From Actinomycetota bacterium (GTDB lineage Bacteria > Actinomycetota > Acidimicrobiia > Acidimicrobiales > JAJPHE01): a DNA stretch of 64,000 bases. Shown here in pieces: positions 54,390 to 56,080 of this stretch. Both the position numbers and the translations under genes were made by a program. Within the stretch, counting starts at the first letter, position 1; every line of letters starts with the position of its first letter. The stretch spans positions 62,001 to 126,000 of the forward strand of contig JAJPHE010000115.1 in NCBI GenBank assembly GCA_021325435.1, given 5' to 3'. The notes beneath the pieces were generated by a model, which was not told the origin of the DNA, ran no database searches, and was given only the letters and a program-made list of their open reading frames with translations.

Positions 54390-55202
54390 TTGACGGTGTT
54401 CTGCCGGGCGAACCTCAACTACCTACCCCGGGAAGGACCAGGGGGCGGCGGCCCCAGCGAGGTCGAGATCCATGACGGTCGGTCCGCCGACCTTCCTGGC
54501 TGGGAGGAATGCGGATTCGAGCTCCTCCGCCACGCGTCGTCCGTCCCAGAATGGGCAGACGACCAGATCGCCGGCGTTCACTACGTCGAGATGGAAGAGC
54601 TGGCCTGCAAGCTGACCGGTGCCGACGTCGCGCTGGTGTCGGGCCACATCACGAGGAGCCCGCAAGACGCCAGGCGACACCACCAGCTCTCCCCGATCAC
54701 CTTCGTGCACTCCGACTTCGCCGCTGGTCATGACAGCCTGATTCGTAGCTCATACCGCGATCCGAGCGAGCGGGCGGCCGCCGCCCTCGAACGCAACGGC
54801 ATCTCATCGGAAGAGGTGGCAGAAGCCGACCGGCTGTTAATCCTTCAGTTCTGGAGGAATCTCGGTCCAGCCAAGATGGACCACCCGATTGCCTTTTGTG
54901 ATGTCCGCACCGTCGATCCCTCTGACGGCGTTGCCTTCCGGGTGACGGACTACGCCGGAACGGGCTTCGATTTCGACGCTCTCGGCATCCGCGCGCCCGA
55001 GGGCGGATCTGCCCACCGCTGGTATGCCTTTCCGGCTATGCAGAGGGACGAGGTCGTGGCCTTCCGCACTTACGACACCGACCTGGTCCGGACCGGGGGA
55101 ACGTACTTCACCCCCCACTCCGCCTTCCGCGACCCGGGGGTGCCTCTCGACCATCCTCCTCGCTGGAGCATCGAGCTACGGGCCACCTGCCTGTACTGGT
55201 AG
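54390..55202 (+). CDS. CmcJ/NvfI-like oxidoreductase
   Basis: A 270-residue protein resembling the CmcJ/NvfI and AsaB-like family, whose founding members act in cephamycin and fungal secondary metabolism. Family-like elements are PITFVHSDFAAGHDSLIRSS, LLILQFWRNLGPAKMDHPIA and FCDVRTVDPSDGV, and AFRTYDTDLV near the C-terminus. The start is TTG at 54390, preceded by AAGGAGG with 7 nt spacing; GTG 54396 is possible. The gene lies next to Rrf2. The true reaction here is unknown. Confidence 0.78.
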   Translation: MTVFCRANLNYLPREGPGGGGPSEVEIHDGRSADLPGWEECGFELLRHASSVPEWADDQIAGVHYVEMEELACKLTGADVALVSGHITRSPQDARRHHQLSPITFVHSDFAAGHDSLIRSSYRDPSERAAAALERNGISSEEVAEADRLLILQFWRNLGPAKMDHPIAFCDVRTVDPSDGVAFRVTDYAGTGFDFDALGIRAPEGGSAHRWYAFPAMQRDEVVAFRTYDTDLVRTGGTYFTPHSAFRDPGVPLDHPPRWSIELRATCLYW

Positions 55203-55220: not shown

Positions 55221-55514
55221 TCAGGCCTGCAGGTCGGGCAGGCGCGCTTGGGCCAGATCGACCCGGTGACCCCGGATGGGAACGCCTTCGGCTCTCAGGA
55301 GCCTGAGCTGAGCGACCCCCTTGGGGACGGTGCCATCCGATCTCACCACCCGGTGCCAGGGCACGTTCTCGTTGGTCGTGGCCAAGACCCTTCCGACAAG
55401 TCGCGGAGCGCCGCGATCGATGTCGCCGTAAGTGCGAACGAAGCCCTCCGGTATGGCACGAATCCGATCGAGGATCCGTCGATGACGGGAGAGGTCCGCT
55501 GATCCCTCGCTCAG
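55221..55514 (-). CDS. alkyltransferase-like (ATL) protein, MGMT family, putative CTG start
   Basis: A 97-residue MGMT-like protein. It reads LDRIRAIPEGFVRTYGDIDR, GAPRLVGRVLATTNENVPWH, RVVRSDGTVPKGVAQLRLLR, then AEGVPIRGHRVDLAQARLPD. The catalytic Cys of alkyltransferases is Trp in PWHRVV, the hallmark of ATL (Atl1/eAtl) proteins that bind O6-alkylguanine and recruit nucleotide-excision repair. No ATG, GTG or TTG precedes the conserved core in this frame. A CTG at 55514-55512 overlaps the upstream TGA (CTGA), so coupled initiation at CTG is the likely start. It is therefore easy to miss in automated annotation. Confidence 0.85.
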   Translation of the reverse strand: MSEGSADLSRHRRILDRIRAIPEGFVRTYGDIDRGAPRLVGRVLATTNENVPWHRVVRSDGTVPKGVAQLRLLRAEGVPIRGHRVDLAQARLPDLQA

Positions 55515-56080
55515 GATTGGCTGGGCGGGACGAAGAAGGACCTGATTAACGGCTCATAGTGCTCGAGCGGAGGCGTGTGGTAGCCGGGGTCGAAGGCCGG
55601 CATGTCGTAGTTCCTGACGAACTCCTCGGCCAGGTGGTAGTACTGATGGCCCCGGAGGGCGTCACGGGCGTTGCGATCCCCGCCGACGTAGTGCCAGAAG
55701 TAGTACCCCTGGAACACTGCGTGCTGCTGAACCATCCAGTGGTAGGCCTCCGACACCCAGGGCCTCAGAATGGCGGCCGCGATGTCAGCGTGGTTCCGGG
55801 GCCCGAGGACGTCACCAATGTCGTGGAGCAGGGCGCAGATCAGGTACGCCTCGTCCCGTCCGTCGAGCTCGGCCCGGTGAGCGGTCTGGAGGCTGTGGGT
55901 GAGACGATCAACGGCGAAGCCGCTGGTGTCGGCGTCGAGGAGGCGAAGCTGCTGGAGGAGCCGGTCCGGCAGCTCCTCGACCTGCACGTCGTGTTGGGAG
56001 GAGATGATGGCCCAGTCCTCGGCCGTCGACTCATCCATTCTGGTGAACTTGGCTCTCTTGTCGACCATGGACTGACTCAT
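55511..56080 (-). CDS. HD-domain protein (PhnZ-like)
   Basis: A 189-residue HD-superfamily protein. The HD motif is LICALLHDIGDVLGPRNHADIAAAIL, with His in YHWMVQQHAVFQGYYFWHY and a final metal-ligand Asp candidate downstream. The N-terminus reads KRAKFTRMDESTAEDWAI. Members of this type are close to the di-iron oxygenase PhnZ/TmpB group but vary in activity. Start ATG at 56080, with AAAGGTGG nearby. It overlaps the ATL gene by 4 nt (CTGA) and likely shares its transcript. Confidence 0.85.
   Translation of the reverse strand: MSQSMVDKRAKFTRMDESTAEDWAIISSQHDVQVEELPDRLLQQLRLLDADTSGFAVDRLTHSLQTAHRAELDGRDEAYLICALLHDIGDVLGPRNHADIAAAILRPWVSEAYHWMVQQHAVFQGYYFWHYVGGDRNARDALRGHQYYHLAEEFVRNYDMPAFDPGYHTPPLEHYEPLIRSFFVPPSQS

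Follow-up and report, generated by a model that had tools for sequence, protein, structure and literature searches.

CTG looks like a regular start codon in one bacterial order, with an ATL gene among its apparent users

CTG looks like a regular start codon in the order to which the window belongs, judging from conserved gene starts, and a minus-strand ATL gene within the window appears to be one of its users. By the window we mean the whole 64,000-nucleotide stretch of DNA that was analyzed. Among bacteria, initiation at CUG is considered rare and weak. In the present order, mreB, a gene of the essential type, would use CTG about as often as ATG, in 27 families, and 0 of the 31 outgroup loci need it. 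We lean slightly towards a broader proposal, in which CTG would be a fourth regular start across the order, used genome-wide and freely exchanged with ATG, GTG and TTG, and in which the fidelity of initiation would be set outside the initiator tRNA. Our searches found no open-access literature on CTG starts in this group, probably Acidimicrobiia to judge from named contigs that carry close ATLs.

Results

The minus strand carries a predicted ATL gene

An earlier note on this DNA had proposed a minus-strand ATL gene carrying a PWHRVV motif. The sequence, the PF01035 profile and the conserved columns confirmed the gene, its motif, its coordinates and the CTGA junction. The locus contains the following features.

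55221 to 55514, minus strand: ATL gene with a probable CTG start, 97 codons plus TGA (PF01035, kept invariant residues, AlphaFold2/Foldseek)
55511 to 56080, minus strand: HD-domain gene with ATG at 56080, the upstream overlap partner (PF01966, 6.9e-06)
55511 to 55514, minus strand: CTGA, the putative ATL start codon overlapping the HD stop (sequence)
55515 to 55517, minus strand: ATC one codon upstream of the CTG, the sole other near-cognate codon at the expected start
55554 to 55556, minus strand: in-frame TGA upstream of the ATL frame, which bars an ATG, GTG or TTG start further upstream
55383 to 55385, minus strand: TTG, with which standard start codons first appear in the ATL frame, 43 codons into the gene (sequence)

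A profile search matched the AGT DNA-binding domain (PF01035, 3e-12) to residues 11-78 of the 97 in the ATL frame, with no N-terminal domain, and the coding log-likelihood was +6.8 in this frame versus -19.4 and -22.9 in the two shifted frames. The window's genome holds one ATL copy. In an alignment with 24 relatives, which are 56-72% identical to the window ATL over the core, the window protein keeps all 28 columns that are invariant in those relatives, together with each of 12 others whose conservation is 90% or higher. P52 and W53 are invariant in the 25 sequences, the window copy reading PWHRVV with the active-site Cys replaced. Y29 and R38 are invariant as well, and would be the Tyr and the putative Arg finger used in base flipping, having been matched to the roles of human Y114 and R128 by motif position. 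ATLs are defined as proteins whose active-site Cys is replaced, usually by Trp, giving PWHR (PMC10779285). The window protein agrees with this definition in its motif, its Tyr and its putative Arg finger, and we filed it as an ATL.

The AlphaFold2 model built from the 25-sequence alignment reached a mean pLDDT of 93.2 and a pTM of 0.84, with its first helix at residues 2-19. Using this model, Foldseek returned the S. pombe ATL 3gva as top match (TM 0.73, 29% identity), followed by 3gx4 and then V. parahaemolyticus 2kif, and a sequence search of solved structures gave the same order (3gva 8.3e-06, 2kif 4.3e-04). Known ATLs bind O6-alkylguanine without repairing it and flag the lesion for nucleotide excision repair, with recruitment of UvrA/UvrC. 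By analogy, the window ATL would presumably bind O6-alkylguanine, leave it unrepaired and flag it for nucleotide excision repair. Defence-system profiles matched neither the ATL nor the HD protein. A convergent 270-residue frame on the plus strand (54390-55202) has no Pfam match.

The ATL frame offers CTG as its start

The ATL CTG occupies 55514-55512, the HD stop TGA 55513-55511 and the ATL stop TGA 55223-55221. Between the TGA at 55556 and the TTG at 55385, the ATL frame contains no ATG, GTG or TTG; the other near-cognate codons in this stretch are ATC 55517, ATC 55475, ATT 55463, ATA 55454, ATC 55421 and AGG 55391. The earlier note had conceded that an ATG or GTG start further upstream in relatives would overturn its reading; in the window, an in-frame stop located 14 codons upstream of the CTG precludes such a start.

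That note had also suggested comparing the starts of relatives, and this comparison agrees with the CTG, which lies 27 codons before the TYGD motif. The nearest standard start stands at exactly 27 codons in 4 of the 24 relatives (ATG in L061, L072 and L086; GTG in L062). Measured in each relative from the nearest standard start that leaves the first helix intact, the distance is 21-28 codons in 16, 30-42 in 7 and 60 in 1; the window start falls within this range, and is conserved as a position. The 24 relatives exclude L088 (contig edge), L075 and L063 (the same DNA as L003 and L086), L087 (no TYGD) and the remoter matches L004-L060. The relative at L068:2866-3264 has no standard start closer to TYGD than 60 codons upstream, and a nearer CTG is present.

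Since the modelled first helix spans residues 2-19, the ATL protein should begin about there. With no standard codon available and with relatives starting at this place, the claim that the ATL gene starts at the CTG overlapping the HD stop is supported. Taking the two statements jointly, we consider it probable that minus-strand 55514-55221 encodes a functional ATL protein, as identified from its sequence and model, and that its translation starts at the CTG at 55514. On the sequences compared, this CTG is an individual case for the gene, its ATL relatives elsewhere having a standard start. That standard start rules would miss the gene, as had been predicted, agrees with the Prodigal description, in which CTG starts are not considered (PMC2848648).

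The HD-ATL junction is compatible with translational coupling

The HD protein resembles, below threshold, the phosphonate-degradation HD oxygenase TIGR03276. The ATL frame is -1 relative to HD, and the two genes share bases between stop and start in the 4-base overlap CTGA. A sequence scan found no Shine-Dalgarno-like stretch upstream of the ATL CTG. RNA structure at the junction was nothing special (z-score -0.66), and an Rfam search of the window returned only a tRNA. Stop-start overlaps support termination-reinitiation coupling in general, according to Huber et al. 2019 (PMC6728339). Because no Shine-Dalgarno-like stretch precedes the CTG, translational coupling of HD and ATL via the overlap is plausible.

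A functional connection of the HD protein to DNA repair was not supported. Among 31 HD-match and 58 ATL-match loci, only L001 and L031, both of them copies of the window's own locus, carry the two genes, and G001, a genome of the same family that holds the closest relative of the HD gene, has no ATL match. As the pairing is found only here, we read no shared pathway into the pair.

mreB is frequently found with CTG at its start site in the window's order

The recurrence of CTG at mreB and tlyA start sites across the order supports CTG initiation at the ATL gene. Because the N-terminus of the first MreB paralog is rigid (X-A-R-D-LAIDLGTANT), the codon four before the motif could be typed. The census read 149 genomes (loci L243-L273, L275-L277 and L321-L435), of which 146 carried the motif and three (G050, G076 and G165) did not and were left untyped; 48 of the 198 genomes in the order had no mreB match at 1e-44, and G021 also falls outside the census.

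The codon at this site in the 146 loci was CTG in 59, ATG in 53, GTG in 28, TTG in 5 and ATC in 1, so that NTG stands at this fixed position in 145 of the 146; CTC, CTT and CTA were found in none of the 146. CTG accounts for 6,228 (51%) and CTC for 4,628 (38%) of the 12,156 leucine codons in the sample of the window's genome. That only CTG appears, and never CTC, CTT or CTA, even though CTG makes up just 51% of leucine codons, argues that an internal leucine is no explanation. In 46 of the 59 CTG loci, a search reaching 30 codons upstream, or as far as the stop, met no standard start, and in 27 CTG loci an in-frame stop lies at most 12 codons above, leaving CTG as the sole NTG at the expected start. 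CTG mreB genes occur in 27 of 48 families, and 10 families mix CTG with other codons, which argues for repeated changes of the codon. Of the 59 CTG starts, 28 have a Shine-Dalgarno-like motif upstream, versus 7 of the 53 ATG starts (Fisher p 1e-4, with related genomes non-independent).

Outside the order, mreB had a standard start in 31 of 31 loci (L274, L278-L300 and L436-L442), several of which are the second paralog with a longer N-terminus. The difference in CTG use, 59 of 146 in the order versus 0 of 31 outside, gives p 1e-6, again with related genomes non-independent. At one order locus (L389, genome G109) mreB has ATC at the conserved site, and GTG codons 10 and 13 codons above could serve.

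tlyA and further genes add CTG candidates

We read 37 tlyA loci of the order, 3 of which lacked the motif and were left untyped (tlyA loci overall: L132-L161, L185-L212 and L443-L475). In 18 of the 34 typed loci, CTG was found and the 10 codons preceding RRRLD held no standard start, 16 of these loci reading CTGA; 11 had a standard start and 5 had neither. In L143 (TAG CTG ACC GCA CGT CGC) and L138, stops lie three codons above RRR. Among outgroup loci, where 5 of 21 and 8 of 33 lacked the motif and were untyped, a standard start was present in 31 of 41 typed (12 of 16 plus 19 of 25). CTG without a standard start was seen outside the order in 3 of 3 loci of family f70 and in 3 of 6 of family f73, one more of which had neither; of other genomes of the same class, G440 and G452 have CTG without a standard start and G412 has ATG. 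On these sequences, CTG use in tlyA may be wider than in mreB. Neither a standard start nor CTG lies within 10 codons before the core in L141, L149, L154, L158 and L185 of the order, or in L206 and L453 outside it, L453 being open for only 2 codons; ACG or ATN may serve as the start in those loci.

The window's genome was sampled over a first 334 kb and later over 595 kb (15%). In the 595-kb sample, MreB, TlyA, two MBL-fold proteins and a SAM hydrolase had no standard start before their family profile. Residue 2 of MreB aligns with TIGR00904 position 2, the first standard start being codon 39 after the CTG, and residue 8 of TlyA aligns with TIGR00478 position 1. The MBL-fold protein after a murI-like gene aligns residue 6 with NF041851 position 2, the second MBL-fold protein residue 2 with the same position, and the SAM hydrolase residue 6 with NF058624 position 1; scores for NF041851 and NF058624 are below the curated cut-offs, and these names are loose. 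Two of these genes are located as follows.

L302:1299-2132, minus strand: MBL-fold protein, no standard start before the profile
L307:10012-10827, plus strand: SAM hydrolase, no standard start before the profile

The MBL-fold gene after the murI-like gene has CTG only in the window's genome (G000), and standard starts in the 22 relatives read. The Mug glycosylase was dropped as a CTG case, its N-terminus being variable and a GTG at residue 19 being able to serve.

In a scan of the sample, 72 of 404 genes had no standard start near the coding onset, mostly false frames of a GC-rich genome; candidates were chosen from it by eye, and we used a candidate only if it had a family profile. Overlap pairs called by coding score alone numbered 17 for CTGA, 7 for ATGA, 18 for GTGA and 3 for TTGA, and since several of the CTGA pairs are chance, we draw no rate from them. 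CTG was not among the 14 codons most enriched for an upstream Shine-Dalgarno motif in the 595-kb sample, because its signal is diluted by its use as a leucine codon.

Alternative explanations of the ATL start

We weighed four other readings of the ATL start. Translation might begin at the ATC at 55517, which is in frame and adjacent to the CTG, or at another near-cognate codon. The ATC at the MreB start of G109, and the 5 of 34 order tlyA loci where standard starts and CTG are both missing within 10 codons, are compatible with this. However, CTG outnumbers ATC by 59 to 1 at the MreB start, and the junction that recurs in tlyA is CTGA and not ATCCTGA, so we regard this option as unlikely.

The gene could instead have recently lost its start codon and be decaying, or an assembly error could have altered an original ATGA overlap. 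The genome is a draft in 160 contigs, and an A in place of the C at CTGA would be synonymous in HD (both Ser) and would restore the usual ATGA. Yet no invariant ATL residue has been lost, and CTG stands at 59 of 146 mreB starts in the order, including genomes in one or a few contigs (G139, G090 and G013), which is unlike random error. We give this explanation very little weight.

A -1 frameshift near the end of HD would yield an HD-ATL fusion of about 285 residues needing no start codon, and the ATL frame does lie at -1 relative to HD and stays open over the 13 codons upstream of the CTG. The earlier note had itself named a frameshift as a way to be wrong. But the overlap contains no X XXY YYZ slippery heptamer, relatives of HD have variable tails and stop near the same point, no fused HD-ATL was found among the loci examined, where the adjacent pair occurs only at the window's own locus, and the CTG falls at the position where relatives begin; a frameshift is therefore most improbable. 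The TTG at 55385 is the first standard start in the frame, but its 54-residue product would lack TYGD as well as the N-terminal helix and the conserved helix that comes after TYGD, making it hardly credible as the start.

A proposed route to CUG initiation

With initiation at the CTG as the preferred reading, our model suggests that the ribosome would finish HD at UGA and shift one base to the CUG. As no Shine-Dalgarno motif precedes the ATL CTG, termination-reinitiation after HD would be the likeliest route. The ordinary initiator fMet-tRNA would then read the CUG through a weak first pair, and the ATL protein would be made at a low level; a weak start of this kind could suit a low-dose damage sensor.

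An unusual initiator tRNA was considered as the cause of the CTG starts and rejected: the anticodon stem is ordinary, GGG-CTCATAA-CCC being kept in 29 of 30 loci (L213-L242). In the remaining locus, L242 of G010, the match spans 48 bases and leaves the 5' side of the stem unconfirmed. Among the 12 tRNAs in the 15% genome sample, none is initiator-like with anticodon CAG. The CUG is then presumably read by the usual fMet-tRNA, and an initiator tRNA of ordinary appearance offers no cause for a relaxed start choice. In a structural study, a variant of the E. coli initiator tRNA reads CUG through a weak first pair, and E. coli complexes on CUG are weaker than those on AUG, GUG or UUG (PMC11497404). 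In a mycobacterial reporter study, CTG made up 0.03% of selected start sites, and CTG starts were called scarce (PMC4633059).

Discussion

If the order-wide proposal is true, CTG would often be offset by a stronger Shine-Dalgarno motif or by a stop-start overlap, initiation fidelity would differ from that of mycobacteria and E. coli, and public gene predictions for the group would cut or miss a few percent of genes. Gene finders limited to ATG, GTG and TTG would truncate or lose real genes in a large environmental group, the window ATL included. The order would also be a natural system for asking what governs start-codon choice.

The infC gene starts at AUU, a rare non-standard bacterial start. 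Such starts, infC AUU and the CUG of the structural study (PMC11497404), resemble the present case in that the initiator tRNA reads a near-cognate codon. They differ from it in that CTG here appears at about the frequency of ATG at one conserved gene, order-wide, and swaps with ATG, GTG and TTG within families. The ATGA and GTGA termination-reinitiation overlaps, as described in PMC6728339, share with the window junction a 4-base stop/start overlap and a short reinitiation distance, whereas at the window junction CTG would replace ATG, GTG or TTG and no Shine-Dalgarno motif lies above it.

As for the protein, the window ATL resembles S. pombe Atl1, the E. coli ATL and V. parahaemolyticus 2kif in being a C-terminal-domain-only AGT fold, with PWHRVV replacing PCHRVV, the Tyr and the putative Arg finger; 3gva and 2kif are its best solved matches. 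It differs from the solved ATLs in being shorter (97 residues), in its compact HTH region, in its 29-31% identity to them and in its probable CTG start.
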